Assembly (NCBI RefSeq): GCF_037948395.1 | Contig: NZ_CP149940.1 | Span: 2,666,001 to 2,730,000, forward strand | DNA: 64,000 bases | DNA from: Serratia nevei | Lineage (GTDB): Bacteria; Pseudomonadota; Gammaproteobacteria; Enterobacterales; Enterobacteriaceae | Reading direction: 5' to 3' | Shown here: in pieces, positions 15,318 to 45,974 of the stretch | Layout of the letters: the number at the start of each line of letters is the position of its first letter | Position numbering within the stretch: position 1 is the stretch's first letter | Notes under the pieces: model-generated | Told to the model about the DNA's origin: nothing | Databases searched by the model: none | The model's input: only the letters and a program-made list of their open reading frames with translations | Translations under genes and position numbers: made by a program

Positions 15318-15335
15318 ATCAAGAGGAGCAAGGCG

Positions 15336-27440: not shown

Positions 27441-27892
27441 ACCCTGACCTGGGGCAGCCTGCTGCCCCGCCTCATCCGTCTTGATTGCTCACCGTGGCAA
27501 TCATTCCGCTGCGAATTTTATTTATTACTCCGTCAATGATGCGCACAGTAATGATAAATTAATTCACTATATATAAAAGATTAAACAACTAATGATTAGA
27601 ACCATTTAAAATCATAACCACACTCAACACATTGATTTATTAAAATTAAAGCCAATAAGAAAATAAAAACCGCAAAAAACATTCTGTTTTTTTGATTTCT
27701 TAAACTATTCCTCCTCTTTTACAACGCCGTGATTTTATTGATTATCTGTTATGCAAGAATAAACACTTAATTTATTTTTATGTATGTGTTGCTTTTTCAA
27801 GCGCCATTGCTATTGTTGAATGTGAGTAAAACGCGGCGACAAAGCGATTCACCACCTCCTTTTTATACCATCCTGCGTATAAGGATCTGACT
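27441..27892. other. 452-bp AT-rich intergenic region upstream of the nine-gene island
   Basis: No convincing gene. It begins with a GC hairpin (GGGGCAG/CTGCCCC, 27451-27468) that may end the pdxK transcript. About 300 bp of strongly AT-rich DNA follows, in sharp contrast to both flanks. Such composition is typical of H-NS-bound promoters ahead of acquired genes. AAGGA before the ATG at 27893 is the first ribosome binding site of the island. No clear single promoter could be chosen. Confidence 0.6.
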
Positions 27893-28417
27893 ATGCCTAT
27901 TAAAAAGTATGTCATTCTTGATAGCGCGCCCAAAGCTGTCGGCAATTCCGATTTTATTCTATTAGGGTTAAAGAACGAAGGTTTTGCCAGAGGTTGCCCG
28001 ATGTTATTTGGCGGCACCGCCGATGCTAAAGATGGCCCGGTCGATGGAAAAAACTTTGCGTTGAATGTAATAAAAAGAGAAACCTGGGAAGAAACCAATC
28101 AAAATATCGGCGTGGAACAGGTGGTAAGATATCAGGTTTACCCCAATGACATCAGCGTTTATACCAGTAAAGACTTCACTTTCACCGGGAAAGTGGCCAT
28201 TGGCGGTGAGTTTGCCTGGATTCGGAAAGTGAGCAAAGGCAAAATAAAAACCTATTTTAAAAACAAACCCGCTGCCACTAAAGACATGTTTGCTCAAGAG
28301 CTTTATGCAATGACGCTGGATGTCGATATTGAACCCACCGATGCGGAATTCGAACAGTATTTATCTTCAGATTGCCTGAGCGCCATTTACGCTTACTGTA
28401 AAGAAACCTGCAAATAA
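27893..28417 (+). CDS. Degenerate Nudix-domain protein, first gene of the island
   Basis: A 174-residue protein with a partial Nudix box: Gly48, then Asn54 in place of the usual Glu, RETWEET (Arg62, Glu63, Glu66, Glu67) and Asn69 where Gly is usual. The metal-binding Glu residues are kept, so it could still hydrolyse a nucleoside diphosphate-linked or prenyl diphosphate substrate, but two consensus positions are altered. AAGGA precedes the ATG. The gene is more AT-rich than the rest of the island. Its function in the cluster is unknown. Confidence 0.68.
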   Translation: MPIKKYVILDSAPKAVGNSDFILLGLKNEGFARGCPMLFGGTADAKDGPVDGKNFALNVIKRETWEETNQNIGVEQVVRYQVYPNDISVYTSKDFTFTGKVAIGGEFAWIRKVSKGKIKTYFKNKPAATKDMFAQELYAMTLDVDIEPTDAEFEQYLSSDCLSAIYAYCKETCK

Positions 28418-28436
28418 CGCCTGTTAAAAACGATGG

Positions 28437-28458
28437 GCACGCCATGATGATGGCGTGC
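28437..28458 (+). repeat. Strong hairpin between the Nudix and Hint genes
   Basis: A perfect 9-bp stem (GCACGCCAT/ATGGCGTGC) closes a GATG tetraloop, with an extra GAT/ATC pairing outside. No T run follows. It may be a partial terminator or an mRNA processing site that sets the expression of the first gene apart from the next eight. Confidence 0.7.
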
Positions 28459-28496
28459 ATCTCTGGCAATGCCATTAATTTATTGGTGCCGATATT

Positions 28497-30104
28497 ATGC
28501 TCGCAAAAGATTATACGTCAGATGAGAAACGCATCGTAAAAAACGTTATCGACCAATACGAGAACAGCGGCGTATTTCTTATCGAGCCAGGCGATCCGGT
28601 TTTAACCGAATTTTATGATATTCAATTAAAACTGGCCGGCGTCACCGCCGCCGCCGCACCGCAATTCACCCAGCTCTGGCAGCAGACGAAACGCGTCAAA
28701 CGGGTCGCAGGCCGGATGAGCGAGGCCAACACCAGCGGCGCTCAGCCGGTGTACAGCATCGTCAGGCTGGATTCCACCGACGGTAAACGTTATCAAACCG
28801 ACGCCATCGGCTCTCTGCCGGTTCAGGCGACCAATGTGACGCAAACCCTCGGCCTGTTCGACGGCGGCGCCGATAACGTCGGCAAGGTGGAATACAAAAG
28901 CGACTACGTTTACACGGCGGACTGCACCATCGGTGCCAGCGGTGACTATCCGCAAAGCCAGACCGGCGGCAGCTTTCCGGTTACGGTGATCTATACCTTC
29001 GCGCAAACGGTCGGCCAGCAAACCGTTTACGGCGCCGAAATCGTCACGACGCAAAGCTACCCGAAAGAAATGATCAACGATTCCCCGAGGAATCTGTATA
29101 ACCAGCGCATGATCAAGATTTGCCTGACGCGTGACGATGGCGACTGTGATTATCGCACCGGCTACGATCAGGACGGCACGGTTAAAGTGCCGATAAAAGG
29201 CAACATCACCTATTTTGGCAATATTGATCTCAGCAATGGCAAGCCGGTCAACGCCAGCAATACCATTTATCTTATCCGCACCCGTGCCGGCGGCGATCCG
29301 ATCACCCCTTACGGCGGCTATAATATTTTTAATTCTGCCGCAACCCGAATCAGCGGAAATAACATCACCTGGGATCTTGACTGGCTGAAATTCAACCGCG
29401 TCGATTTTGAATCCGGTGAGATGGTTTATTACGTTTTTAAAATTACGCTTGATGTCGAAGGCCGCAGCATCGCCGCCTTTATTACTAACGCGCCCAAAGA
29501 AAGCGATCCGGATCGCCGCCTGCTCAATACCGTACAAATCAAACCGATGCAGATTATTTATGGCTGCCTGGCAGAGGATACGTTGATTTTAATGCAGGAT
29601 GGGACAGAAAAGCCGATAAATGCCCTCACGGCAGATGAATTCGTTATTTGCGGCAATAACTACCCCAGACGCATTGAGAATATCACCACGGGGCAGGAGC
29701 AGCATTACATTGACATTACCGCCCGCGACCAGGCGGCACGTGAATATCGCATAAAAGCCAGCCTGGGGCACCCTTTCGTCACCGCAAACGGTATTTGTCT
29801 CGCCCGTGAATTGACCTCAGGCATGCGTCTTAAAACTCGGCACGGTGAGTGCGAAATTACCGCCCTCTCTCTCCAGTCCGGTGAGTTAACCGTCTATAAC
29901 CTGCAACTCAGCGCTGACTCTCCGCTGCAAAAAACGCAATGCGCCCTCAGTACTTTTTATGCTAACGGCGTGCTGGTCGGTGACGCGCTGGTTCAACACC
30001 TCTATGAAGACGAATATCACCAACGCCCTAAAAACGTGCTGAAAACGCTGCCTGCCGAGTGGCACCAGGATTACCACAATATGATCAATGCAGCGGAAGA
30101 ATAA
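28497..30104 (+). CDS. Hint-domain (hedgehog/intein-type) protein
   Basis: A 535-residue protein. The first 355 residues are beta-rich and of unknown family, with no signal peptide. The last 180 form a Hint domain: Cys357 in GCLAEDTLILMQDG (block A), SLGHPF with His425 (block B, S in place of T), GICLARELTSGMRL, and VYNLQLS...FYANGVLVGD at the end. In inteins the last motif ends His-Asn; here it is Gly-Asp, so protein splicing is unlikely. Cleavage or ester/thioester transfer at Cys357, as in hedgehog and bacterial intein-like domains, is plausible. The ribosome binding site is weak (GGTG). Confidence 0.75.
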   Translation: MLAKDYTSDEKRIVKNVIDQYENSGVFLIEPGDPVLTEFYDIQLKLAGVTAAAAPQFTQLWQQTKRVKRVAGRMSEANTSGAQPVYSIVRLDSTDGKRYQTDAIGSLPVQATNVTQTLGLFDGGADNVGKVEYKSDYVYTADCTIGASGDYPQSQTGGSFPVTVIYTFAQTVGQQTVYGAEIVTTQSYPKEMINDSPRNLYNQRMIKICLTRDDGDCDYRTGYDQDGTVKVPIKGNITYFGNIDLSNGKPVNASNTIYLIRTRAGGDPITPYGGYNIFNSAATRISGNNITWDLDWLKFNRVDFESGEMVYYVFKITLDVEGRSIAAFITNAPKESDPDRRLLNTVQIKPMQIIYGCLAEDTLILMQDGTEKPINALTADEFVICGNNYPRRIENITTGQEQHYIDITARDQAAREYRIKASLGHPFVTANGICLARELTSGMRLKTRHGECEITALSLQSGELTVYNLQLSADSPLQKTQCALSTFYANGVLVGDALVQHLYEDEYHQRPKNVLKTLPAEWHQDYHNMINAAEE

Positions 30105-30108
30105 TATC

Positions 30109-31863
30109 ATGTATGAAGGCTACCCCGACTTCCAGCGCATTATTATCTGCGATGCTCAACGTTTCGTCGCCGCGTATCGGCAAAACGACGCCTATTATTT
30201 ATATCCTCAGGCGCTCAGCATTCTGGCGGCCGACCCGTTGGCTTTCTCGCTGGATATCGTGCGCAGCTACAGTACCGAAAGCCTCTACGGCTGGCTGAAT
30301 TTCACCACGCAATTGCAGTTCGCCGGTGAACAAAGCCTGCAGGTATTCAAGCAACAGTATCCGGATTGTGCGGTGAAGGCGCTGCCGGTCTTGCCTGGCA
30401 GCCTGGGATTCGACGTGCCTATCGACTACCACAGCGAACTGTACGGCCGGCACTACGACACCACCTGGTATTCGGCACAGTGCAGTCAATTCATCATTCT
30501 GCTCAATGCGGCAAGCACTCAGTTGATCGAGCGCACCCTGCTCGATGAGACGATAGGCTTCAACGCGCGTCTGGACGGTTTCGTCGAAGGCGTATCGCCG
30601 CGTCTGGCCTACCGGGTGGAATTTGATGCCCGTGCGCTGATCCTGGCCCTGGCCGCCGGCGTGGAAGGTGCCCATGCCGTGGGCGATACCGGGATTGTCT
30701 TTCCCTATGACGGGCTGACCCTCTACCTCAGCCGCAACCTCACCCGCTTGCCGCTCGACATCGACCCACCGCCACCGGCTAACGATCCGGCCGGGGATCT
30801 GTTGCTCAGCCAGGCTTTGCTCGATCGGCTATACAACCTGTACGGTGCGCCGTCTGCCGGCCCCGCCGCCGGCAATGTGGCGCAGATCCTTCTGACGCCG
30901 CCCCCGCATACCGGCCGGACCCGGTGCGATCTGGCCAATGTCGCGCTGACTCAGCGGCCACTTTGCTTCACGTTGGATCCGTTCGCCGCCGCGCAGCAGA
31001 TCGCCAAAGTTTCGCCCGATACCATTATTCATCGTACCACCGCACCGCCGCTGCCGGCGGGAGAGCGAGAGATCAACGTCTTTTACGCCTACCCGCTGGG
31101 GCTGCAATCCGGCGTTACGATCGATATTCAGCTGACCGTACCGCCCGGCAATATCTACCCGATCGAGCAAACGCAAACGCTGGCGCTGCGCCCCGACCGC
31201 ACCTGGTTAACCTTCAAGTTTCACAACAGCGCGCTGGATGCACAGCCGTTTTTCTACCAGATCCGCGTGAATTACCCGCAAGACGGCGTTTACCGCACGT
31301 TGCCCGGCGAACAACGTCGCTGCGACGAGGATAACCTGGTACTGGATTACGCCGCGCTGCCTTGCCGCTTCCTGACCCTTTATCTCGACCCAACGTTCGC
31401 CCAGCAAAGCCGACTTGGCGGCCCCTATTACTCCGCCGACTGGCGCCAAACGTGGGCGCTCAGCGCATCGGCGCCCTATTTCAGCGCACCGATCCTGGGC
31501 GACCCGACTTTTGCCGAGGCGACCGCCTATTCGCTTTCCGGCGACGGCGCCGTCCCGTTACCCGCCCCGATCGTGCAAAACGCCACCATCGGCGCCTACA
31601 GTTTTCCGCAGTTCGGCGCACAGCAGGCGACGATCACCGTTCGGCTGCCGCCGCAGTCGCTCAGCGCCGTACTGAGTTTTCAGCCGCAGGACAGCGAGCG
31701 CACCAGCGACCGCACTTTTACGCATTCGCAGCCGAGCTTCGTCTACAAATGGAACGTCACCTCCATTTTCGCCGCCGGCTTCCGCTACAAGACTCCCACT
31801 GGCCCCTGGTCGCCTTATGTCACCGGCGACCAAACGATCGATATCAAGGGTGATACACCATGA
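30109..31863 (+). CDS. Island paralogue 1, beta-rich protein of unknown function
   Basis: A 584-residue protein without signal peptide or membrane helix. Two blocks appear in the other large island proteins. Block A (about 28-70) is AYYLYPQALSIL... ending NFTTQL. Block B (about 122-175) has FIILLNAASTQLIERTLLDE followed by PRLAYRVEFDA. The rest is a series of predicted beta strands (VNVFYAYPLGL-like segments, RTWLTFKFHN, FYQIRVNYPQDG), suggesting tandem beta-sandwich modules. A Pro-rich linker (DIDPPPPANDP) divides it near residue 220. I chose the ATG at 30109 because of GGAAG upstream. The gap to the Hint gene is 4 nt. Confidence 0.62.
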   Translation: MYEGYPDFQRIIICDAQRFVAAYRQNDAYYLYPQALSILAADPLAFSLDIVRSYSTESLYGWLNFTTQLQFAGEQSLQVFKQQYPDCAVKALPVLPGSLGFDVPIDYHSELYGRHYDTTWYSAQCSQFIILLNAASTQLIERTLLDETIGFNARLDGFVEGVSPRLAYRVEFDARALILALAAGVEGAHAVGDTGIVFPYDGLTLYLSRNLTRLPLDIDPPPPANDPAGDLLLSQALLDRLYNLYGAPSAGPAAGNVAQILLTPPPHTGRTRCDLANVALTQRPLCFTLDPFAAAQQIAKVSPDTIIHRTTAPPLPAGEREINVFYAYPLGLQSGVTIDIQLTVPPGNIYPIEQTQTLALRPDRTWLTFKFHNSALDAQPFFYQIRVNYPQDGVYRTLPGEQRRCDEDNLVLDYAALPCRFLTLYLDPTFAQQSRLGGPYYSADWRQTWALSASAPYFSAPILGDPTFAEATAYSLSGDGAVPLPAPIVQNATIGAYSFPQFGAQQATITVRLPPQSLSAVLSFQPQDSERTSDRTFTHSQPSFVYKWNVTSIFAAGFRYKTPTGPWSPYVTGDQTIDIKGDTP

Positions 31864-33290
31864 CCGACGAATTGGATCCGCAACGTACGTTGCAAAACTT
31901 CTTTCTTCTTGACCGCGCGCTGGCGTTTCACGACCAAACGCGCCCCAGCGGCTGTTACACCTACGGCAGCTATACGCCGCAGGTGGTGCAGGAAACGCCG
32001 GCCGGCAAGATCAGCTCGCTGCATTTGCTGACCAGCCCCGGCGGCGGCCTGGCGACCTTCATTGCACCGAAGCTGCCGGTCGACAGGGCTGCGATCGAGG
32101 ACTATATCCGCCGCCATTTCGTCCCCGCTCCGGAAACCATCACCCTGGAGCAGGAGGAGATCCAGCAATCGCTGTGGCTGCACTTCGCGCAGCGGCCGGC
32201 TGCTGCCGCCTACAGCGTCGAATTTGAACAGTCCAAAATGGCGTTGACCCATGAGGAGTCTGGCCGGCTGGCGGGCGCGATCCAGGGAACAAAAGACCAG
32301 GTCTATTTTCTCACCCGCAGCCGATTCAGCGTCGACAGCCGCGTCAATGCCCGTTTGCAGGCCGATTGGGTCGCGTTTGTTACCCTGGCCTTCAACGAGC
32401 AGGCGCGGCAACCGGAAGCGATCGCCAGGCTGTTGAACCAACAAATCGACGCCGGCGTCGTCATTGTGCAAGCGCAGTTCGACAATGCGCCTTCAGAGCA
32501 GACGCAAGCTCGCGTTCGCCAGGCGTTGGTAAACACCGCCTCACTGCTGATCGCCAACACGCTACGCAATATCTCGTCGCCAGAACAAATCCCCAACAAG
32601 CTGAATTACCAGATCGAATACGACGACACCGTGCCCCAGCGCTATCTGCTGGAGCAGCAACGCGACATTGCCGAACTGCTGAATCGGCTGCCGGCCGACG
32701 GCATCATCTCCTTTACCGCTACGCCCCTGCCGGAACCCAGCAGGCCGGATAAGCCGATCGAGCCTCAACGCTGCACCGTCAGCCTGGGATTTGATCCGAA
32801 AGGCTTCAATATCATGGCGATAGAGTTGCGCTGGGCAGATCAACAGGCGCCGATGGCGTGGCCCAGCTTCCCGCCAGTGACGCTGGAAACGACAGCGGCG
32901 GTGAGCGATATCGCACTCAAGGTGACCTTCGCCGATTACACCAGTTTCGAGAGCCGGCTGGCGTGGCAGAACGCCATCGCGCTGACGCCGCAGGATGTGG
33001 GTTTCTATAGCCTGCTGTTCGACGCCGAGTCTCTGAAGTCCGAATTCAAAACGATCTCCGGCAGCGCCAGCTATCTCCCGGCGGGCCAGGGCAAGAAACA
33101 AAACTTCACCTTCGCCTTTTCCGCCGCGCAGTGGCAGGCCATCTGGTGGATCAACGCCCATGCCGCCGGCCTCAACGGCCGGGTGGACTATCGCTGGCAA
33201 GGGAAAACGGCGGCGCTATTCCCCAAAAACTACGACTCCGGCCCCCTGCAGGCCACCACCGGCCCCATCAAACTGCAATACCACAAGTGA
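31860..33290 (+). CDS. Island paralogue 2, beta-rich protein of unknown function
   Basis: A 476-residue soluble protein that overlaps paralogue 1 by 4 bp, so translation is coupled. Block A-like sequence lies at about 33-72 (CYTYGSYTPQVVQETPAGKI) and block B-like at about 118-180 (YSVEFEQSKMALTHEESGRLAGAI, then RVNARLQADWVAF). The C-terminal half is again beta-rich (RCTVSLGFDPKGFNIMAIELRW). No catalytic motif was recognised. It looks like the most diverged member of the set. Confidence 0.6.
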   Translation: MTDELDPQRTLQNFFLLDRALAFHDQTRPSGCYTYGSYTPQVVQETPAGKISSLHLLTSPGGGLATFIAPKLPVDRAAIEDYIRRHFVPAPETITLEQEEIQQSLWLHFAQRPAAAAYSVEFEQSKMALTHEESGRLAGAIQGTKDQVYFLTRSRFSVDSRVNARLQADWVAFVTLAFNEQARQPEAIARLLNQQIDAGVVIVQAQFDNAPSEQTQARVRQALVNTASLLIANTLRNISSPEQIPNKLNYQIEYDDTVPQRYLLEQQRDIAELLNRLPADGIISFTATPLPEPSRPDKPIEPQRCTVSLGFDPKGFNIMAIELRWADQQAPMAWPSFPPVTLETTAAVSDIALKVTFADYTSFESRLAWQNAIALTPQDVGFYSLLFDAESLKSEFKTISGSASYLPAGQGKKQNFTFAFSAAQWQAIWWINAHAAGLNGRVDYRWQGKTAALFPKNYDSGPLQATTGPIKLQYHK

Positions 33291-33311
33291 CATAAACAAG
33301 AGGACCGCCCT

Positions 33312-35468
33312 ATGTTAACCACCGCTTTGCAGCAATCGATAAAAATCGACGTCACCGAGTATTTGGGCGTCAAGGAATACGCGTATACCTGCTACGGCGA
33401 CAGCGACAGCAAGGATATCTTCTATGTGGTGCCGGAGATCCCGGTGTTTGCCAAACGGGATACCAATACGCCGAGCTTCATGTTTTACAAATACCGCAGC
33501 GAAGATACGCAAGGCGGCTACGCGCAATTCACCGTGCAGCTGCCGCAGCCGAATGCGGAAATGAAAGACCGCATCCGCCTGCAGCTGTATAACGGCCTTG
33601 GCAGAAAAGACGGCCCGCTGGATAAAAAATCCAAGCTCATTGTCGACTACATCAAGGCAAAACAGGCCTATGAAGCGGACCCGGAAAACAACACCAAGAA
33701 GACCGCGATGGACCAGGCGCAGAAGAATACCGGCCTGAGCGATGAACAGCTCAACCGGTTTGTCGCGCTCTACGACGGCAACAAGGGCGACGATCAATTC
33801 CTCAGCGAACTGATGCCGGCGGACGCTGCAAAAATCGAACTGATGCAGCCGCGCTACACCTCGGCGCAGGCCATGCTGATCCTCGACGGCAACGATAAGT
33901 TCTATCGCCAGATCCCAACGCCGCTGTCCCCCTCCGGCCTCGGCGACAACAATACCGTGTTCAGCCTGTCGCTGACCGGGGAAGGCGCCACGCTGTTTGA
34001 ACAGGTGCTGAAAGGCACCGATAAAAACGCCAGCGTCGGCGTGCGCTTCGACCTCTCCCTGGATGCCTCCATGTCGGCGGCCAAAGTGATCGTCACCTAC
34101 AACAGCGAGCAGGCCAAGTCCGTAGCGCAAACCATCAACTACCACACCTGGTCGGCCGACGAGAAAAAGATCGAGCAGGAGTTTTACGCCAAGGAAGCGA
34201 TCAAGGTGGACGTGCGGATCGGGTTGACGGCGCAAGAAATGGGCATGGAACCCGCCGCCTATGATAAATGGAAGGAAAGTCTGCGGAACTGGGGGCAACA
34301 GCAGGTCGAGCAGATCCTGAGCAGCCAAACCGGCATCGACATGAGTCTCAATTTGCTGAACGACGCCGGCAGCTTCGAAAAATTCCAGTCCAAAATCTCG
34401 CAAACCCAGAGCTTCAGCCGCGAATATGAAGAGAACGCCGTGGTGTCCTCCACCATTTATCCGCAAACTCAGCTGCCGTCGATACGCTCAATCGTCGGCG
34501 AAGCCGATTTGGATCAGTACTTCAAAGAGTACGATCTCCACGACCCGTTCTATCAGTACATCCAGCCGGAGTTCTTCGTCACCGAAGACATGGCCAAGTA
34601 TGACATCGCCAATATCGTGGTCACCGCGATATACGACGACGATCTCAAGAGCACGCTGACCTTTACGCCGAAGGATCCGGGGCCGAAGAAAACCGACAAA
34701 TGGTTTATCAAACCCGAGCTCGGCCGCGCCTACCGTTATCATTACACCGTCAACTTCACCGGCATGCAGGCCAGACCTTACCTGTCTGGGGACATCCAGG
34801 TCAAAGACGATCTGGTGGTCACCATCAACGCGGCGCAAAGCGGCATCGTCTACGCAGATATCTCCACCCTGCTCAACCCGCTGGGCTGGGAGGTCTTCAG
34901 CCAGGTCGTGGTCAAGACCCAGTACGAAGACAAAGAGCACAGCGTGCCGCTCAAGCAATACACCCAGGTGATCAGCGACAAGAACCCGCCGGTGCCGTTT
35001 ATTTATCCGATCGGCACCAACGTGGAAAAGCCGCTTTATTATTCGGCCGACTACTATGCGCTGGACGGCGACAGCCTGACCTACCTCCCGCCGGGCGTGG
35101 AAAGCAACCCGCAGCTGCCCGGCTATGGCGAAACGCGCGGCAATCAGATCCTGATCGCCAACGCCCTGCCGAAGCAGCAGAAATACACCATCATCTTCAA
35201 ACCGTCGCAAAAAGACGTTTCGCTGATCACCTTCGAGATGACGGTGAACTACCCGAAATGGGACTTCTCGCAAACGCAGCCCATTGCGTTAACCGAGTTC
35301 GACACCAAGTCACTCACGCAGTACCTGACATTCAACCTGATGCAGCAAGAGAAAGGCAACGAGCCGCAGATCAGCTACACCGCCACGGTCTATTACGGCG
35401 ATAACCAGGAGAAAACCGTCACCAAGCCGATCACGGGCACCAGCACCATCGTGGTCGTGACCTTCTGA
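33312..35468 (+). CDS. Island paralogue 3, large beta-rich protein of unknown function
   Basis: A 718-residue protein, the largest of the island. Block A (36-76) reads IFYVVPEIPVFAKRD...FMFYKYRSEDTQGGYAQFTV and aligns well with paralogue 5. Block B (209-266) reads NNTVFSLSLTGEGATLFEQV followed by VRFDLSLDASMSAAKVIVTY. A long helical, charged insert (about 85-175 and 270-400) separates the strands. The C-terminus has two or three repeats of a W-(x)5-V-x-V-x-x-x-Y beta module (LGWEVFSQVVVKTQY, SLITFEMTVNYPKWDF). No signal peptide. AGAGGA precedes the ATG. Confidence 0.62.
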   Translation: MLTTALQQSIKIDVTEYLGVKEYAYTCYGDSDSKDIFYVVPEIPVFAKRDTNTPSFMFYKYRSEDTQGGYAQFTVQLPQPNAEMKDRIRLQLYNGLGRKDGPLDKKSKLIVDYIKAKQAYEADPENNTKKTAMDQAQKNTGLSDEQLNRFVALYDGNKGDDQFLSELMPADAAKIELMQPRYTSAQAMLILDGNDKFYRQIPTPLSPSGLGDNNTVFSLSLTGEGATLFEQVLKGTDKNASVGVRFDLSLDASMSAAKVIVTYNSEQAKSVAQTINYHTWSADEKKIEQEFYAKEAIKVDVRIGLTAQEMGMEPAAYDKWKESLRNWGQQQVEQILSSQTGIDMSLNLLNDAGSFEKFQSKISQTQSFSREYEENAVVSSTIYPQTQLPSIRSIVGEADLDQYFKEYDLHDPFYQYIQPEFFVTEDMAKYDIANIVVTAIYDDDLKSTLTFTPKDPGPKKTDKWFIKPELGRAYRYHYTVNFTGMQARPYLSGDIQVKDDLVVTINAAQSGIVYADISTLLNPLGWEVFSQVVVKTQYEDKEHSVPLKQYTQVISDKNPPVPFIYPIGTNVEKPLYYSADYYALDGDSLTYLPPGVESNPQLPGYGETRGNQILIANALPKQQKYTIIFKPSQKDVSLITFEMTVNYPKWDFSQTQPIALTEFDTKSLTQYLTFNLMQQEKGNEPQISYTATVYYGDNQEKTVTKPITGTSTIVVVTF

Positions 35469-35480
35469 CGGCCGGTCTCC

Positions 35481-35507
35481 GCCGGAGCAAGCACGCCTTG
35501 CTCCGGC
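35481..35507 (+). repeat. 11-bp perfect hairpin between paralogues 3 and 4
   Basis: GCCGGAGCAAG and its exact complement enclose a CACGC loop in the 68-nt gap, the widest gap among the six beta-rich genes. No T run follows. It may stabilise the 3' end of the upstream part of the message or partly terminate it. Confidence 0.8.
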
Positions 35508-35536
35508 TCCCTCTCCGATGACGTGAGGTTGCCGCT

Positions 35537-37363
35537 ATGCGCGATCAGGTAATCATGCAAGACATCTGTTTTATTCGAGCGGACCCGGATCGGCCCGTGT
35601 ATTACTACTGTGCCGCCGCGCCGAGCGTGCAGGTCACCGCAGGCAATCAACCCGATGTCCAACTGCAAATTTTCAGAAACCTCAACCAACCGGACGATCT
35701 TTACTACGCCACGCTGTCGTTGCAGACCCAGTTGGCCAGTTCGCCCGACGCGGCGCAACGCGCCGCCGACGCCAGCCCGGATATACCGCGCGATGCGATC
35801 TTATTGCCGCTGCAGGCGATCGCCTGCAGCGCGACGCTGAATATCCCCGATCTTATCCCCGGGCAGACCAGCAAAACCTCGCTGAGCGACCAGCAATATT
35901 GCTACCTGTCCGCCAAACTGGACGACGACGACGATATCCTGCTGCTGGCAAGCCTGATGCGCACGCCGGCCTCGACGCCGATCGCCGTCAGTTACAAAAT
36001 CGACTACCTGCAGCAACTGCCGCCGGCCACCTTCGAGCTGGAAGCCAACTGGGACCAGGTTTACCGTTACCTGCAGCGCTCGATAGGCTTTAACCTGCTG
36101 ATCTTTAGCGTCGGTATCGAGCAGACATCCGCCCAGTTGATCAGCGAGAAAATCGTCACCGTCAAAGTCAGGGACACCGATCCCGACGGCCATATGGCGC
36201 AGGCGGCCGCCGAACTGACGCAGATCCTCACCAGCCAGTTCTTCACGCCGGTTATCGCCAACGAACCGCAGCAGACAAGCCCCAAAGCCGGCTTTTATCT
36301 ACAACAGGTCTCGGTTGAAAACATCGATCAACGCCGCCTGAGCGGCAAGATCAGCGAAACCAACGTCGTGCAGCGTTCGCTCTATCCGCAGGCCCTGTTC
36401 GCCCAGTTGGTCAACGGCACGGACTATCAGGCCGATCGCGCGATCGTCAAACGCGATCTGCAGGATGACTTTTTCGCCTATCGCGAGGTGCGGGTCAGCC
36501 TACTGTCGGATGCGCTTGACGCCAATATCCTGCTGGTGACGGCCCGGTTGCGCTATGGCTCAAACAGCCGACAGCTGAAATTTACCCGCGACGACTTCGG
36601 GCCCAAACCGTTTAAGGAACCCAGCCTGATCGACCCGAAAACGGGAAAAATGCTGTGGCCGGTCGAGTATGACTTCACCGTGTACTTCAACCAGTCGATA
36701 GGCGGCGTGACTTCGGTCAGCTCCGGCAGCCTGCAAACGGAGATGAGCGAGGTCTTTCTGGACGTCGAGTCGCTCTACGGCCGCTATGATTTCGCGATCG
36801 AAGCGGCGCAACAGTTTGACTGGCAGCGCTATCAATCCGTGCTGGTCACGCTGCGCTATCGCCACCGGCAACAGCCGAACAGCAGCGTGTCGCGCAGCTT
36901 CCAACTTGACCAGACCAGCCCGCGAGCCCACTACCCGGTCATGCTGCCGGAGCCGGACGAATACCAATTCGACGTCGACAAAACCTACAGCGCCGCCGTC
37001 AACTCACCGCATATCTCCGCCGAGCTGCAAGAACCGACCGGTCAGGACGTCTACCTGTTCTCGACCCTGTATCGCCAGCGCGTGCTGACGCTGTCGGCCG
37101 ACATGGACTGGCGCCGGGTGGAAATGGTCATCGTTTCCGCCAGCTACGCCTGCACGCCGGCGGAAACGCTGCAGCAGGTGTTTCAATTTACCGAATCCGA
37201 TGCCGCCCCGCGCTGTTTCAGCGCCGATCAGCTTGATCCGGAGCAGATGAGCGTCGATCTGGATATCTGGTTTACCTATCAACCCGGCGAAGGCGGCGAT
37301 CGGCCCGAAAACGTGCAGTGCTCGACCGACGCCAACGCTCTCGATCTCGCCACCCTCAGTTAA
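35537..37363 (+). CDS. Island paralogue 4, beta-rich protein of unknown function
   Basis: A 608-residue protein. Block A (20-67) is PVYYYCAAAPSVQVTAGNQPDVQLQIFRNLN and block B (119-180) is YLSAKLDDDDDILLLASL, then TPIAVSYKIDYLQQLPPATFELEANWDQVYRYL. The latter aligns closely with block B of paralogue 5, sharing SAKL and the Pro/Ala...Tyr pattern. The C-terminal half repeats the beta module (FDWQRYQSVLVTLRYRH, MDWRRVEMVIVSASY). No signal peptide or catalytic motif. GAGG precedes the ATG; paralogue 5 follows after 13 nt. Confidence 0.62.
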   Translation: MRDQVIMQDICFIRADPDRPVYYYCAAAPSVQVTAGNQPDVQLQIFRNLNQPDDLYYATLSLQTQLASSPDAAQRAADASPDIPRDAILLPLQAIACSATLNIPDLIPGQTSKTSLSDQQYCYLSAKLDDDDDILLLASLMRTPASTPIAVSYKIDYLQQLPPATFELEANWDQVYRYLQRSIGFNLLIFSVGIEQTSAQLISEKIVTVKVRDTDPDGHMAQAAAELTQILTSQFFTPVIANEPQQTSPKAGFYLQQVSVENIDQRRLSGKISETNVVQRSLYPQALFAQLVNGTDYQADRAIVKRDLQDDFFAYREVRVSLLSDALDANILLVTARLRYGSNSRQLKFTRDDFGPKPFKEPSLIDPKTGKMLWPVEYDFTVYFNQSIGGVTSVSSGSLQTEMSEVFLDVESLYGRYDFAIEAAQQFDWQRYQSVLVTLRYRHRQQPNSSVSRSFQLDQTSPRAHYPVMLPEPDEYQFDVDKTYSAAVNSPHISAELQEPTGQDVYLFSTLYRQRVLTLSADMDWRRVEMVIVSASYACTPAETLQQVFQFTESDAAPRCFSADQLDPEQMSVDLDIWFTYQPGEGGDRPENVQCSTDANALDLATLS

Positions 37364-37376
37364 CTAAGGAAACGCC

Positions 37377-39035
37377 ATGTTATTACTCAGAGCCAAAACT
37401 GCCACCATCAACAACATCACCTTCTTCGCCGACGATTCAGACGATAACCAGTTCTGGTATCTGCCCGGTGATATCCACATTGCGCAGAAGTCGGGCGAAC
37501 CGGTGTTTTCGCTGATCAAATACACCGGCGACGCCAGTGATCCGCAAGGGGGATACATCAACTTCGAGGTCAATACGGCGATCGACGAAGCGGTGTTGAA
37601 CCGTGCCTTCAACGACTATCTGCGCAAACTGAACGTTGATCCCAAGAATGCCCGCAAGGCCCAGGTGCCGTATGATAAAGGCACGGTGAACTTCTTCGTG
37701 CTCGACGCGGGCGCCACCAACGGTGAGCTGATCAGCGCCCCTTGCCCCAGCCTGTTCGGCAACAACAGCGCCATTTTCAGTGCCAAGCTGACGCCGTCCC
37801 AGGCGGTGATCCTCGAAGCCGCGTTCACCCAGGCCAAGGCGCCGGCCGCCGTCGCCTATAACCTCAGCTTCACCGGCATCACGCCGGCGCTGAAGGTCGA
37901 AGTGACCGCACAGTTCGAAAGCATCTACAAAGAATTCGATCTGAAATTCGGCGCCAACATTCCCATTCCGGTTGAGACGCCGGCCAGCTTCTGGCTGGGC
38001 TTCGACAGCGTCATCAAAAAACTGCAGCAGGATCAGAAACTGGTGATCAAGGTCACCGAAAGCATGCCGGGCGACGAAGAGGCCAAAGAGAAAGAGTGGG
38101 CACTGCAGTTCGTCAAGGAAGAGATCTTGAAAAGCTTTTTCAGCGCCACGCTCAAACCTAACGACGACAGCAACCCGCAGGCGAAATCCGCCAGCGACGC
38201 CATTCTGGATTCGCTGATCGCCAGCGACAAGAAAGAAGGCGAAGAAGCCGGCAAAGGCGGCCTGTTCCCCAGCGCTTCGCTGGAGATCAAGCTGGTGCGG
38301 ATCGAGGAAACCAAAAGCCTGAACTTCAACTACACCTCGTCGAAAGCCCTCAGCCAGTCCGCCGTGCCGCAAAACTTCATCGGCAGCGATATCCTGCACG
38401 CCCAGAAAACCGCGCCCTACTTTATTCAGGTCAACGTCAACGATCCGTTCTTCCAACAGCTGGATTTGACCGTGCTCGGGCCGGACAGCTTCGAGGAGTA
38501 CGGTATCAAGGCCGCCACCTTCAACATCCGTTACAACAACCAGGTTTATACCGGCGCGCCTTTCACCAACGATGACGGGACATGGACCAAACGCATTGCC
38601 CGCAGCAGCGATAAGAACGAGCTGTTCCATATCACCAGCGAATTCGCGTTCAAATCCGCAGCCTCCTCGGGCTGGGAAGGCAGCAGCAGCTATCAGCCGC
38701 AGTCCAAATCGGCCTCGACCCTGCTGAACATGGATCCCGGCTCGGTGCTGTCTTTCAACGAGATCAGTATCTTCCTCGACCGCAAATTCTCGTGGGAAAA
38801 CTGTAACCAGGTCATGGTGGAGCTGAGCTATCAGGACGACAAAGGAAGCCGCAAGACCAAGAAATATACCTTTACGCAAGGCGCGCACGAGAGCCAAACG
38901 TTCAAATACCGCTGTCTGACGGAGAAGCCTTGGGCGGTCAATTACACACTGATCTACTTCCTGGTTGGCGGAGAAACCGTCGAACGCAGCGGCAGCGAAA
39001 ACCCGCCGGCGATCGTCATCCCCAACCTGGTTTAG
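37377..39035 (+). CDS. Island paralogue 5, beta-rich protein of unknown function
   Basis: A 552-residue protein. Block A (26-65) reads FWYLPGDIHIAQKSGEPVFSL, then SDPQGGYINFEV; block B (129-182) reads NNSAIFSAKLTPSQAVILEAAF, then AVAYNLSFTGITPALKVEVTAQF. A Lys/Glu-rich helical stretch (about 225-310) follows. The C-terminal module FSWENCNQVMVELSYQDDKGSRK matches the repeats in paralogues 3 and 4. AAGGAA lies 7 nt before the ATG. The next gene starts immediately. Confidence 0.62.
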   Translation: MLLLRAKTATINNITFFADDSDDNQFWYLPGDIHIAQKSGEPVFSLIKYTGDASDPQGGYINFEVNTAIDEAVLNRAFNDYLRKLNVDPKNARKAQVPYDKGTVNFFVLDAGATNGELISAPCPSLFGNNSAIFSAKLTPSQAVILEAAFTQAKAPAAVAYNLSFTGITPALKVEVTAQFESIYKEFDLKFGANIPIPVETPASFWLGFDSVIKKLQQDQKLVIKVTESMPGDEEAKEKEWALQFVKEEILKSFFSATLKPNDDSNPQAKSASDAILDSLIASDKKEGEEAGKGGLFPSASLEIKLVRIEETKSLNFNYTSSKALSQSAVPQNFIGSDILHAQKTAPYFIQVNVNDPFFQQLDLTVLGPDSFEEYGIKAATFNIRYNNQVYTGAPFTNDDGTWTKRIARSSDKNELFHITSEFAFKSAASSGWEGSSSYQPQSKSASTLLNMDPGSVLSFNEISIFLDRKFSWENCNQVMVELSYQDDKGSRKTKKYTFTQGAHESQTFKYRCLTEKPWAVNYTLIYFLVGGETVERSGSENPPAIVIPNLV

Positions 39036-39044
39036 GTGAGCACC

Positions 39045-40955
39045 ATGATCGATCGCAACGCAGTGTTACCCTCGGCATGGAACGCCCTGGTCAACGCCCT
39101 GTGCAAGGAAGCGACCTATTTGCAAAACACGCTGGCCCCGGACGTCGCCCGCTTCAGCCGGACGAAGGCGACGCCCGGCGGTTTGTCCGTCGCGTTTACC
39201 ACCAGCCTGCTCGGTTATAACGGCAGCCCGCTGGAGTTCACCGTGTCGTCGGCCAAACCGCAGGGGCTCGCCTGCACGCTGGATCCCTTTTTACCGCGCT
39301 ATGCGCAGCGCCGCAGCGCCGGCGCCTTTGCCCGACGCTGTGAGGCGATCACCGCGGCCCCGCTCGCCGATCCCGCCAACAGCCTGGAGGCGGTGCGACG
39401 TATGCAATGTGCAAGCGTTCAGCCGCTGCGCTTCGGCGCCTGGCTGGGGCGAAAATACGCCCCGGACGCGATCAAAACCAAGGTCTACGTTGAAACCCCC
39501 GCGGACATGGCGGCCGCGCCCGATGGCTTGCAGGGGCCGCTCACCGCCGAGGCCCGCCGCGCGGCGGGATTGACGCTGCTGATGGTGGGGTATTACCCGG
39601 AATCTGCCGACTCTCCGCGCGAATATTACTACCAGTGGCACAGTGCGCGGATCACGCGTGACGATATCCTCGCCGTCATGCGGCTGTTCGAGGGAGAAAG
39701 CCGTTTTTCCGCCCTGATGCCGCTGCTGGACCGCGCGCTGCGGCAGCAGGACAGGCGGGACTTCCCCCCGACCACCTACGGATTCAGTCTGGGATACGCG
39801 CCGGACGGCAATCTGGAGAGTTTTACGCTGTTCGCCATGGCGGCAAGTTTTTTCGGCGACAACCGCCGCGTTTTCGACGGCATCACCGCGCTGCTGGCGC
39901 CCGATGGCCAAGCCATGCCGCTGCTTAACCGCGCGGTGAGCGAACAGGTTCCGTTGCAGTACAACGTCGTCGGCTTTTCCTGCGATCGCCAGGGCAATCA
40001 CAGCGTCAGCTGCACGTTCAGCCCGCAAAACGCGCATTTCGAAATCCTGCCATGCAAAGCGCGCGAAACGGCACCGCTTGTGCCATTGCCGTTGGCGGAG
40101 CTGTTGGCGCAGCAGTGTGCCAGCGGCGCCTTTCCCTCTCATGTCAGAACGCCGGATGGCCGCTGGCACAAGGATGAAAATGCTTTTGTCACCGCCCAGG
40201 TGCTGCGCACGCTGGATTATACCGCCCAGACCGCGCCCCATATCGAGCTGGCGCTCGACTTTTTGCTCGGTTGCGAGAGCCGCCCGCACCACTTCCATTT
40301 TTGGCCTGCCGGCAAGCACCCCGCCTGGATGGCGGGCCAGCGGATCGACGCTGACATCGACGATACCGCCATTATCACTGAGCTCTTGTATCGATTTCAT
40401 CGGCGCTCGTTGGCGCAAGCCAGACAGACGCTGGCGCAGATGCAGGCTTATCAGGTACAGCGCGTCGAACGGCGGCTGAAGACGACGCCCTATCCCTGGG
40501 CCGAGTGTTACGCCTTTCACACCTGGATGAAAGACGACGGCGACATCACGCAACTGGACTGCTGCGTGAATACCAACGCGCTGATTTTAATCCATACGTT
40601 GACCGCCGCTCACGGCAGCCCGCCGCCGGCCTATCCGCGCATTATCCAAATGCTGAATCAGGCGGTGAGCTGGAGCGACGGCGATTACAACCGCCTCAAC
40701 GCGTTAACGCCCTATTATGCCCACCCGCATGAGTGGCTAAGTACGCTGGAATACGCCAGGCGGCAAGGGGTGCCGCAGCTTGCACCGGCGATCAATGCGC
40801 TGGCCGCCTGGCGCTTGCCGGCGACCAACGACGAAAGCCCGCTCTATCGCCGTCACGACGGTCATTTTCTTTGGACTTCCGCCTGCCTGAACCAGTTCAG
40901 ACATCTGGCACGCCTTTCTTCCCTGGAGGATCGCTATGAACATCTTTCTCAATGA
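39045..40955 (+). CDS. Putative terpene-cyclase/prenyltransferase-like protein
   Basis: A 636-residue protein unlike its neighbours. The C-terminal half (about 350-636) looks helical, with RWHKDENAFVTAQVLRTLDY and DIDDTAIITELL, where DIDDTA (residues 437-442, bases 40353-40370) is an exact DxDDTA motif as in class II diterpene cyclases and related alpha/alpha-toroid proteins. The N-terminal half has KVYVETP and TTYGFSLGYAPDGNLESFTLF, faintly reminiscent of ABBA-type aromatic prenyltransferases. Neither assignment is proven. I chose the ATG at 39045 because AGGTGAG lies just upstream; a GTG at 39036 is possible. It overlaps the next gene by 20 bp. Confidence 0.5.
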   Translation: MIDRNAVLPSAWNALVNALCKEATYLQNTLAPDVARFSRTKATPGGLSVAFTTSLLGYNGSPLEFTVSSAKPQGLACTLDPFLPRYAQRRSAGAFARRCEAITAAPLADPANSLEAVRRMQCASVQPLRFGAWLGRKYAPDAIKTKVYVETPADMAAAPDGLQGPLTAEARRAAGLTLLMVGYYPESADSPREYYYQWHSARITRDDILAVMRLFEGESRFSALMPLLDRALRQQDRRDFPPTTYGFSLGYAPDGNLESFTLFAMAASFFGDNRRVFDGITALLAPDGQAMPLLNRAVSEQVPLQYNVVGFSCDRQGNHSVSCTFSPQNAHFEILPCKARETAPLVPLPLAELLAQQCASGAFPSHVRTPDGRWHKDENAFVTAQVLRTLDYTAQTAPHIELALDFLLGCESRPHHFHFWPAGKHPAWMAGQRIDADIDDTAIITELLYRFHRRSLAQARQTLAQMQAYQVQRVERRLKTTPYPWAECYAFHTWMKDDGDITQLDCCVNTNALILIHTLTAAHGSPPPAYPRIIQMLNQAVSWSDGDYNRLNALTPYYAHPHEWLSTLEYARRQGVPQLAPAINALAAWRLPATNDESPLYRRHDGHFLWTSACLNQFRHLARLSSLEDRYEHLSQ

Positions 40956-42363
40956 TCTGGTGACGCTGAACAAGGTCATTTTGGACAACGCGCGCGAACA
41001 GTTTCCCGACGCCGAAGCCCCCCGTCTGCGCTACCGCGCCGCGCCCGCGCCGGTGGCCGACGAACTGCAGGCCGATGTTTGTACCGAAGTCGTCTCGGGA
41101 GAGACGCGCTATCGCATCGCCACCAGCAGTGACGGTACGCGCTGGCATATGACGGTGGATTTCGCGCTCAGCCGCGCCGTTCAGCAGGTGCCCTACGTGG
41201 TGCTGACCTTCAGCACTTTCGGCAAGGTTGAAGAAATGATCTTCGAACAGGTTTTGCTGGACGTCCCGCCGACCCGCTACCGCGCCCAGCTCGACCTGGA
41301 CCGCCTGGAACAGCGTGACGCGCTGCTGCGAGCGCTGTCGGATTATGACTCGCAAACCACGCTGGTGGTCGCCATCGTCACCGATAACGGGCTCCTCAAC
41401 ACCATCACCTCGCCGAAAGTCTTCTACTTCGCCGAGAACTACTATCCCTATATCTATCAGGGCATCCTGCCGCCGCCGCCGCGCCTGCAGCTGATCCTCA
41501 CGCCGCTGGCCTTCGGGCATCTGTGGTACAACTACTATCAGGACTATGTACGAAAAAACTATCTTTATTACCTGCCTGATACTTTCCTGCTGGCGACCAA
41601 CGCCGCCGACGACGACAAACCGATGCTGTCTATCTCGTTTTCTGCAGCGCCGCACGCAACCTCGCTCAACGATGTCGAGGTGACGTTCGACTATTTCCTG
41701 TCACCCAAGGTCAATCAGGCGCGCATCGGCGACGCCACCGCACAGTTCACGCAGATGCAACCGGACGGCAAGCTGGCACCGTTCGCCAACGCGGACACCC
41801 TGACGCTGCTGCTGGGGCTGCCGGACGGCAAAACGGAGGAAAAAAACGCGCTGATCAATCTGCAGAGCGGTATCGTGGATTCATTCACGCTGCCCGCCAG
41901 CCAATTTGGATTGATTTGGGATGCCTTCTTCGATCGGTCGCCGCAAAACCTGCTGCTCAAGGGATATCTGGCGGTGCAGTTCACCGGCTTCAACCCGGAT
42001 AATCTGCCCGTGGCGCTGGCGCTGGACGCCAAATACCAGAACAGGCTGCCGGATTTCATCAAGCAATCCGCACCGGCGGACATCAATAAGACCGTGGAAT
42101 TCCGCAGCGATGCCGGCGCCTACGATCCCGCCGGGCCGCGGCCGATCAAGCGCATGCTGGTCAGCATCGACAATCAGACCATTGAGCTGGACAAGGAGCA
42201 CCCCGTTCAATCGGTTAACGTGAAGATTTCCGTGCTGGAACTGATCCTGCATCCGGACAAGAAGCTGGTGTATCACTACGATTTGCAGATTATCTACGTC
42301 GACGGCGGCAAAAAGTCCTCCTACGACAATACGTCCAGCTTCGAGATTATTTACGTCCCCTGA
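40936..42363 (+). CDS. Last gene of the island, beta-rich protein of unknown function
   Basis: A 475-residue soluble protein with no signal peptide. It starts inside the end of the DIDDTA gene with a good GGAGG site, so the two are coupled. Predicted strands dominate (YVVLTFSTFGKVEEMIFEQVLL, LNDVEVTFDYFLSP), and one stretch (LPASQFGLIWDAFFDRS...LAVQFTGFNPDNLPVALALDA) has the same spacing as block B of the paralogues. It may be a distant sixth member. The final residues (YHYDLQIIYVDGGKKSS) again form a beta hairpin. It ends about 60 nt before ycgR, tail to tail. Confidence 0.58.
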   Translation: MNIFLNDLVTLNKVILDNAREQFPDAEAPRLRYRAAPAPVADELQADVCTEVVSGETRYRIATSSDGTRWHMTVDFALSRAVQQVPYVVLTFSTFGKVEEMIFEQVLLDVPPTRYRAQLDLDRLEQRDALLRALSDYDSQTTLVVAIVTDNGLLNTITSPKVFYFAENYYPYIYQGILPPPPRLQLILTPLAFGHLWYNYYQDYVRKNYLYYLPDTFLLATNAADDDKPMLSISFSAAPHATSLNDVEVTFDYFLSPKVNQARIGDATAQFTQMQPDGKLAPFANADTLTLLLGLPDGKTEEKNALINLQSGIVDSFTLPASQFGLIWDAFFDRSPQNLLLKGYLAVQFTGFNPDNLPVALALDAKYQNRLPDFIKQSAPADINKTVEFRSDAGAYDPAGPRPIKRMLVSIDNQTIELDKEHPVQSVNVKISVLELILHPDKKLVYHYDLQIIYVDGGKKSSYDNTSSFEIIYVP

Positions 42364-44097: not shown

Positions 44098-45819
44098 TCA
44101 TGCCGTCTCGGCTGGCTGTGGCTGGTGCACCGCGATATAACGCTGATAGCGCGACGGCTTGAGCCGCGTGGTGTCCACCAGCACCAGCCCATCGATGCAG
44201 TTGTTGAACGCCGGATCGGTGCCGAAGTCGATAAACTGCACCCCGCCCGGCTCGCACAGCTCGGTGTACTGTTTGTAGAGCGTCGGGATCGAACAGCCGA
44301 TGTTGCTGAGCAGGCTCTTCAGCCGCACCAGATCTTCCTGGTAGTTGTCCCCGGCAAACTGCGCCAGCACCTGCGGCAGCGACGCCGGATAAGGCCGGCG
44401 CGACTGCGCGAAGGCATGATCCGGCGAGAAGTAGAGCCGATAGAAGGCGATCAGCAGATCGCGCGCCGCCAGCGGCATGCCGCCGGAGATCGACACCGGG
44501 CCGAACAGATAACGGTACTGCGGGTATTTCGACAGGTAGGCGCCGATGCCCAGCCACAAATAGTCCAGCCCGCGTTTGCCCCAATAGGCGGGCTGAATGA
44601 AGCTGCGCCCCAGCTCGATGCCCTGCGCCAGGATCGGTTCCATATCGCGGTCGTAGTGGAACAGGCTATTGCTGTAGATGCTTTCCAGCCCTTTGCGTTC
44701 GATTTGTTCGGCGGTGGGGATAAAGCGATAGGCGCCGACGATCTCCAGCTCCTCCTCATCCCACAGCACCAGGTGATAATAGTCGTCGTCGTAGCTGTCC
44801 AGATCGCGGCGGCGGCCGGAGCCTTCCCCTACCGCACGGAAGGCGATCTCGCGCAGGCGCCCCAGCTCACGCAGGATCGGCGTGCGTGCTTCATCGTGGC
44901 GGCGGTAGAGGTAGATGGTTTTACCGTCCGGCGTCACCCCCAAGCGTTCGCAGTTCGCCAGCGCTTTTTTCAGCTCCAAACGCTCTTCCGGCAGCGCGAT
45001 CGGCGATTCGCTGGCGAACAGCCCCGGCTTGCCCTGGCCCAGGCGATACACATGGCGGCGAAAACGCTCCGCCAGATCCTTGGCGCTGGTGTGACCGTCA
45101 TGCCAGTTGGCGAACGGCACGCGGCCGCCGATGCGGATCTTGATGCGCCCGCCCCGCTGCTGGAACATTTCGCGCACCAGCAACAGCGTCGACAGCGGCC
45201 GGTAGACCAGCGAGGTAAAGTAGAACAGGTTGCTGTTGCGCGCGCTGATATGAATAGGCACGATCGGCGCGCGCGCCTTGGCGGCCAGACGCAGAAAGCC
45301 GGTATGCCAGTGGCCGTCGCGGATGCCCTTCGGGCTCATACGCGACACTTCGCCGGCCGGGAACAGGATCAGCGCGCCCTGATTGTCCAACTGCTGCTGC
45401 ATGCCTTCAATCTGCTTGCGGCTGGTTTTATAAGCGACGTTATCCACCGGCACGAACAGGTTGCGCAGCGGTTCGATGTAGGTCAGCAGCTGGCTGGCCA
45501 CCACTTTCACATCCGGGCGCACCGCCGCGACGGCGCGCAGCAGCACCAGGCCGTCGAGCGAACCGATCGGGTGATTGGCCACGAGCACCACCGGCCCCTG
45601 GCTCGGAATGTTTTCCAGATCGCCGTCCACCAGCTCGCAGCTGAGGTTGAAGTAGTCCACCACCTGCTCGATCAGATCAAGCCCTTTCAGGTGGGGATAG
45701 TCGGCGGCGAACTGTTTGAATTCTTTTTCGAAGAGAAGGGTTCTTAGCAGGCTGCGCTGCCAGGCAGGGGTATTGCGGTGTGGAAATGCATCTTGCAACA
45801 GAGAATCCAGGCTGAACAT
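44098..45819 (-). CDS. olsF: Bifunctional acyltransferase OlsF (ornithine lipid synthesis)
   Basis: A 573-residue two-domain protein. The N-terminal half is a PlsC-type O-acyltransferase with ANHPIGSLDG (82-90) and FPAGEVSRM motifs. The C-terminal half is a GNAT/hemolysin-like N-acyltransferase (LVLWDEEELEIVGAYRF, SIYSNSLFHYD, ELGRSFIQPAYWGKRGLDYLW). This order matches OlsF of Serratia proteamaculans, which makes ornithine lipids by itself: N-acylation of ornithine, then O-acylation. I chose the ATG at 45819 because AGGAG lies 8 nt upstream. It is likely membrane-associated. Confidence 0.8.
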   Translation of the reverse strand: MFSLDSLLQDAFPHRNTPAWQRSLLRTLLFEKEFKQFAADYPHLKGLDLIEQVVDYFNLSCELVDGDLENIPSQGPVVLVANHPIGSLDGLVLLRAVAAVRPDVKVVASQLLTYIEPLRNLFVPVDNVAYKTSRKQIEGMQQQLDNQGALILFPAGEVSRMSPKGIRDGHWHTGFLRLAAKARAPIVPIHISARNSNLFYFTSLVYRPLSTLLLVREMFQQRGGRIKIRIGGRVPFANWHDGHTSAKDLAERFRRHVYRLGQGKPGLFASESPIALPEERLELKKALANCERLGVTPDGKTIYLYRRHDEARTPILRELGRLREIAFRAVGEGSGRRRDLDSYDDDYYHLVLWDEEELEIVGAYRFIPTAEQIERKGLESIYSNSLFHYDRDMEPILAQGIELGRSFIQPAYWGKRGLDYLWLGIGAYLSKYPQYRYLFGPVSISGGMPLAARDLLIAFYRLYFSPDHAFAQSRRPYPASLPQVLAQFAGDNYQEDLVRLKSLLSNIGCSIPTLYKQYTELCEPGGVQFIDFGTDPAFNNCIDGLVLVDTTRLKPSRYQRYIAVHQPQPAETA

Positions 45820-45974
45820 CGCGTTATCTCCTGACGTAGTCGCTGCAAACTTAAGCCAGAGCCGTGACTCTGACGTGTCAGTTACATGACAATAAAATGA
45901 ATCCATCGACTATCAGGTATAGCAAAGTAATGGCGATTTGGGAGCGAAAGACGCATTTTCGCCCCCATTGCCCC

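Follow-up and report, generated by a model that had tools for sequence, protein, structure and literature searches.

The described enzyme that most resembles the one considered here is NctPC, in which an ABBA-fold prenyltransferase is fused to an MstE-like cyclase. As far as the available part of PMC13290415 goes, NctPC geranylgeranylates (C20) Trp and then cyclises the chain; the paper cited there for it (Hubrich et al. 2024, doi 10.1016/j.chempr.2024.07.026) names ribosomal peptides in its title. We analysed a stretch of 64,000 nucleotides, referred to as the window, from Serratia nevei (contig NZ_CP149940.1, positions 2,666,001 to 2,730,000), in which nine plus-strand open reading frames (ORFs), A to I, occupy positions 27893-42363. 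The eighth of these, H, carries in one chain an aromatic prenyltransferase-type domain, from this point on P, and a class II terpene cyclase-type domain. Like NctPC, as portrayed in the same partial source, H thereby joins the two activities' folds in a fusion, a likeness at the level of description, and the fusion of P to a cyclase is an architecture already described. H differs from DMATS/ABBA enzymes such as PriB, IptA, CymD, FunA and DMATS1 in being fused to a cyclase and in a diphosphate-binding set that looks partly unconserved, and from drimenol synthase, MstE and ent-copalyl diphosphate synthase in that its cyclase is partnered with an ABBA prenyltransferase.

The literature searched, with the primary NctPC paper outside it, describes no counterpart of the whole island; nor does it describe such a fusion within an operon of large proteins, relatives in which the two domains are split between genes, or the lack of a peptide precursor. 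Our preferred reading, to which we give a rough probability of 0.4, is that H attaches a prenyl chain to a co-encoded protein, at an aromatic residue that is most likely Trp, and then closes this chain into rings. The island as a whole suggests an undescribed lipid-modified protein system.

The two domains of H

The N-terminal domain of H has the ten-strand barrel of five alpha-beta-beta-alpha units of the ABBA fold, and the C-terminal domain has the alpha-barrel fold of the class II cyclases. A class II terpene cyclase-type motif in H was the one enzymatic feature of this protein in the original prediction, and it is borne out by the alignment, in which D440, D442 and D443 of the DxDDTA sequence are invariant in 33 of 33 rows; the DxDD motif is also present in all fused and split forms (6/6). 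In P, E67, which we take to be the catalytic Glu of strand 1, and K149 and Y151, presumably the Lys-x-Tyr of strand 4, are kept in 37 of 37 sequences and have the same letters in the aligned 6zrx, and Y198 is likewise kept (37/37). None of the proteins A to I reaches a curated Pfam or NCBIfam cut-off, the profile searches yielding a sub-threshold Hint match in B, and in the libraries searched C, D, E, F, G and I still fit the original description of the island's products as unrecognised. H no longer fits it: its aromatic-prenyltransferase half supplies both the most likely chemistry of the island and, in NctPC, a described relative. We infer that H is a prenyltransferase acting on an aromatic group, with cyclisation of the chain. 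One polypeptide would then have two active sites: the ABBA domain would take its prenyl group from a prenyl diphosphate of the host and pass it to an aromatic side chain, with Trp the likeliest, and an aspartate of DxDD in the cyclase domain would protonate the chain to form fused rings.

In the main rival reading, the product of H is a free meroterpenoid built on a small aromatic (Trp, indole, quinone or diketopiperazine), with the large proteins as a carrier or storage particle. Among the structural neighbours of P, which share about 6-17% identity with it (PriB, IptA, CymD, FunA and DMATS1), the first four have names that refer to free amino acids or small alkaloids; drimenol synthase, also a structural neighbour of H, holds farnesyl pyrophosphate in its structures; and several paralogous subunits would suit a particle. 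Family searches, however, recognised no further biosynthetic enzyme, transporter or prenyl-diphosphate synthase in the island, and a carrier role lacks a demonstrated binding cavity among the large proteins. On balance, we consider a free small-molecule product doubtful.

Large proteins and distant islands

By profile comparison, E, F and G are paralogues: E and G match with an E-value of 3.3e-10, and F matches the wide G family profile at 1.7e-22. C, D and I have no profile match to this family. Strands dominate the predicted structure of G, which is the one protein modelled out of the six that had been called large and beta-rich, and that part of the claim stands. Its C-terminus forms two reliable Ig-like sandwiches, while over residues 101-360 the ten-residue block means of the model range from 35 to 79. 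A row of large beta-rich proteins could also be the remnant of a phage tail or other secretion apparatus, but no solved or viral fold convincingly matches the G model (matches to viral structures are partial only, with a best template modelling (TM) score of 0.30 among the 50 matches listed), neither G nor one distant relative has phage matches, and PHROG offers nothing better than an E-value of 0.028. The chance of such an origin seems close to negligible.

Six further islands from phylum, class and plasmid searches were analysed, G481, G683, G371, G117 and those of Pararhizobium and Paracoccus; the E-values given for them apply to small ORF sets (65 proteins in one, others similar), not to databases. 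The fullest, G481 (L048, L049), has the order I (6.3e-20), C (3.2e-16), a short ORF, E (4.6e-38), F (6.4e-43), G (1.6e-48), P (6.5e-4, or 6.5e-13 with a wider H profile) and cyclase domain (7.3e-37); the short ORF has no match to island proteins. G683 (L050) holds I (2e-18), C (4e-13), one E/G-like gene, P and the cyclase domain, and G371 (L037) holds one G-like gene, P, the cyclase domain and a 1197-aa (amino acid) protein. In G117 (L035, L036), a relative of the I-like protein of Pararhizobium accompanies several genes of E/F/G type and what looks by eye like a cysteine peptidase, followed by a G-like gene and P. The plasmids of Pararhizobium (L029) and Paracoccus (L028) carry E/F/G-like arrays, the former with an I counterpart (9.3e-7). 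P is thus shown by profile in four of the six islands, in all four of which a gene of the E/F/G family lies just before it. Where both were found, the P and cyclase domains occur as separate genes. Among the ORFs extracted from the six (20 island coding sequences tested for the two plasmids), no counterpart of A, B or D was found. The original nine-gene unit was, in this respect, drawn too wide, since these ORF sets lack A and B, and in Pantoea no A precedes B.

The E/G-like gene of G683 (L050:2369-4672) strongly matches the E and G profiles alike, as if paralogues had recombined, and the cysteine-peptidase-like protein of the G117 array is present in Pararhizobium as well.

Maturases of ribosomal peptides are expected near the gene of a small precursor peptide. 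None was seen in a search confined to the locus, where the gaps within the island are at most 79 nt and no conserved small ORF occurs in six leaders. This, together with the genes for large proteins and the E/F/G-family gene adjoining P, favours a co-encoded protein as the acceptor. On this reading C to G and I are large soluble proteins that may form a complex, and H would modify at least one of them; G would be the first candidate, because a gene of its family directly precedes P wherever the profile showed P. The highest 19-residue Kyte-Doolittle mean among the nine proteins is 1.33, which disfavours membrane spans, and the lack of strongly hydrophobic segments would fit proteins that need a lipid to reach the membrane. 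A cyclised isoprenoid might make a protein without a signal peptide membrane-active or membrane-anchored. The broader proposition, that the island represents a new bacterial protein lipidation in which a fused prenyltransferase-cyclase equips a large folded protein, and not a short peptide, with a polycyclic isoprenoid for work in a multi-subunit, three-paralogue complex at membranes, we hold to be unlikely.

Several observations weigh against protein prenylation by H. No solved structure matches H or the full-length H profile by sequence. DMATS enzymes shield the diphosphate with Arg, Lys and Tyr and have a basic residue at strand 6, where position 196 of H is Glu in 36 of 37 sequences; the usual tyrosines of strands 8 and 10 are not conserved in the H alignment, and the diphosphate-binding set, read from the aligned residues, looks incomplete. 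In G, no acceptor Trp stands out: Trp433, in an SGWEG loop and kept in 46 of 48 family alignment rows, is probably the structural repeat Trp of the sandwiches. The P domain of G117 is weak (6.6e-6 in the 65-protein set) and was not recovered by a six-frame search of that genome, and no cyclase was found in 34 kb around the island. ABBA assignments made by eye in the Pararhizobium and Paracoccus islands failed the profile test. Finally, NctPC acts on ribosomal peptides, according to what is available of PMC13290415, whereas H sits among proteins of 475-718 aa with no small precursor seen. The island might also encode an effector, adhesin or toxin-like complex, with H keeping both folds in a mainly structural or regulatory role, but this is improbable.

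Should H modify a co-encoded protein, a cyclised isoprenoid modification reported for ribosomal peptides (in the accessible part of PMC13290415) would extend to large proteins, and would do so in bacteria that are common and easy to manipulate genetically, such as Serratia. The E/F/G-like family, named from Streptomyces and Hydrogenophaga to Serratia, would also gain a first testable function. With one promoter-like block and one enzyme, the island is a clean genetic target, and the split-gene relatives of H let each half-reaction be studied separately.

Conservation and distribution

The layout agrees with what was originally predicted, in that nine tightly packed genes (spacings 79, -17, -4, 21, 68, 13, 0 and -20 nt) follow a 452-bp upstream gap of 35% GC, against 60.6% for the whole window. 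One contig scan with G gave nine loci out of 48 pattern matches. Seven of the nine hold the full set B to I with order and strand unchanged, and the order is kept in Serratia, Pantoea and Enterobacter. Of the remaining two, L022 is truncated by the contig end, with C to I present, and L027 (Enterobacter sp. EA-1, CP025776.1) contains pieces of all eight genes, in order, with many frame breaks that are probably an assembly error. Conservation of order and strand across these loci argues that the clustering is not due to chance. E was found in 11 of 60 genomes, its own included, with all 11 belonging to the genus, and H in the same 11 among the 30 genomes of the genus. A putative promoter, judged from the DNA alignment, lies ahead of A, where a TTGnTT-16 nt-TATTGT block common to the leaders of six Serratia loci encloses an 18-bp invariant stretch. 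The conserved order, the co-occurrence of E and H and the single promoter-like block together support one coordinated function, as had been proposed from the tight packing.

The ratio of nonsynonymous to synonymous substitution (dN/dS) for B to I is 0.17-0.55 versus S. nevei and 0.06-0.21 versus S. inhibens, the latter being rough because dS exceeds 1. E is 85% identical to the S. nevei copy, the other seven genes 93-96%. Sequences flanking the island vary among Serratia species, which implies that its position has changed at least once.

Homologues number 62 for E, at least 42 for H and at least 85 for the G family profile, the last two counts being lower bounds because only the best candidates were scored. 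Enterobacterial names among them are Serratia, Rahnella, Erwinia, Pantoea, Dickeya, Pectobacterium, Prodigiosinella, Kosakonia, Klebsiella and Enterobacter; the others are Chromobacterium, Colwelliaceae, one Bacteroidota metagenome-assembled genome, Hydrogenophaga and Streptomyces. Most named homologues are labelled 'hypothetical protein', one exception being that of H in Dickeya, 'prenyltransferase/squalene oxidase repeat-containing protein'. In even samples the family is rare, with 3 of 398 phylum genomes, 2 of 295 order genomes and 3 of 289 genomes of the class of G371, counts that take in the query's own or centre genome. Four entries (P0004, P0069, P0047 and P0093) are labelled Pseudomonas lundensis or Salmonella Choleraesuis, yet are Serratia-like or enterobacterial island proteins; these labels may be wrong.

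Accessory genes and surroundings

A and B are lineage-specific accessories. The Hint domain originally assigned to B is upheld by a Pfam match, itself sub-threshold (E-value 2.2e-4, 21.7 bits, cut-off 32.1), and by Cys357, the first Cys, and the block-B His425, as in self-cleaving Hint domains, in all eight orthologues. The intein pattern, a C-terminal His-Asn followed by Cys, Ser or Thr, is lacking in the same eight, which have VGD and no His-Asn pair; the residue after VGD is A, I, N or L in seven and S in Pantoea. Because the domain ends in VGD, splicing is unlikely, and, from the conserved residues, cleavage before Cys357 is possible; B would then cleave itself at this point. Upstream, C143, C209 and C217 are conserved. 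In what is available of Buerglin 2008 (PMC2362128), a subgroup of bacterial Hint proteins that share two cysteines upstream of the domain is reported from sources that include Serratia proteamaculans 568. B resembles this group in its Hint domain near the C-terminus and its conserved upstream Cys, and differs from those members that, by the same partial text, have signal peptides, in that B shows no sign of one.

A Hedgehog-like scheme would have H make a cyclic terpenoid alcohol and the Hint domain esterify it to Gly356, the C-terminus of the N-terminal domain of B. The Gly-Cys site, the block-B His, the lack of an intein-type Asn and the conserved tail would all suit this scheme, since in Hog proteins, as given in the available part of PMC2362128, a recognition region is located after the Hint domain. 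B was not found, however, in those of the six distant islands that have P or cyclase genes, a B relative with a similar tail stands alone in G878, where the 19.9 kb retrieved around it hold no island gene, and the aromatic prenyltransferase half of H would be superfluous. We therefore consider this scheme highly improbable. This relative in G878 (L069:9897-11879), 660 aa long, has what by eye is an N-terminus of the secretion type, ends in a Hint domain and an LPxxWHxDY tail, and adjoins other exported-looking proteins. The B profile matched 6 of 247 order genomes, its own included, the other five over the Hint part.

A was originally called a degenerate Nudix protein. It does have the REXXEE core, in which W65 becomes L in one of six orthologues, but the REXXEE part is all that matches of the full box GX5EX7REUXEEXGU, and none of the six orthologues matches any Pfam family even at an E-value of 10, which leaves Nudix as a motif-level guess. 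A might act on a diphosphate. A is found in six of the nine loci, one with residues 1-55 only; it is absent before B in the Pantoea locus L025, and neither L027 nor the truncated L022 showed it.

Table 1. Features of the island and of one distant array (window positions unless a locus is given)
Feature	Position	Strand	Description or basis
Promoter-like block	27789..27816	+	TTGCTT-16 nt-TATTGT in AT-rich leader; DNA alignment, six Serratia leaders
A, 174 aa	27893..28417	+	Nudix-like by motif only; accessory
B, 535 aa	28497..30104	+	Hint protein, accessory; sub-threshold Hint match, orthologue alignment
Hint domain of B	29565..29984	+	Cys357 after Gly356, His425, ends VGD; 8/8 orthologues
Conserved tail of B, 39 residues	29985..30101	+	3' of Hint domain; invariant Trp522
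C, 591 aa	30088..31863	+	Core; orthologues, distant matches in G481 and G683
D, 476 aa	31860..33290	+	Orthologues; no distant counterpart found
E, 718 aa	33312..35468	+	E/F/G paralogue family
F, 608 aa	35537..37363	+	E/F/G paralogue family
G, 552 aa	37377..39035	+	E/F/G paralogue family; directly before H
H, 639 aa	39036..40955	+	Fused aromatic prenyltransferase and class II terpene cyclase, by fold
P domain of H, residues 9-334	39060..40037	+	ABBA/DMATS-type prenyltransferase domain
Cyclase domain of H, residues 351-631	40086..40928	+	Class II terpene cyclase domain; DxDD at 40353-40364
I, 475 aa	40936..42363	+	Core; counterparts in G481, G683 and Pararhizobium
G117 array surroundings	L035:7132-11824 and 14442-16052		NAL1-like, Amidase_3; cysteine-peptidase-like protein inside array

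Behind the G117 array lie the NAL1-like protein (Pfam E-value 2e-57), the Amidase_3 protein and two more proteins. On the Paracoccus plasmid, trypsin-like, EAD1 and STAND-type ATPase genes (L028:6433-11320) are directly 5' of the E/F/G-like array, which also contains a PLD-like gene and has a tyrosinase-family gene at its end.

The host genome of the island is 5.46 Mb, and the closest named relatives of the window proteins are from Serratia marcescens and other Serratia. The genes flanking the island are ordinary, with several of the matches that name them under the curated cut-off: upstream are a luciferase-like monooxygenase, a MocR-like regulator, a glutamine amidotransferase and a pyridoxal-kinase-like gene, and downstream a YcgR-like gene, an N-formylglutamate-deformylase-like gene and the ornithine-lipid synthase OlsF. 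The last, a bifunctional enzyme matched at window positions 44098-45906 with 840 bits against a cut-off of 620, is the third gene downstream of the island, on the opposite strand.

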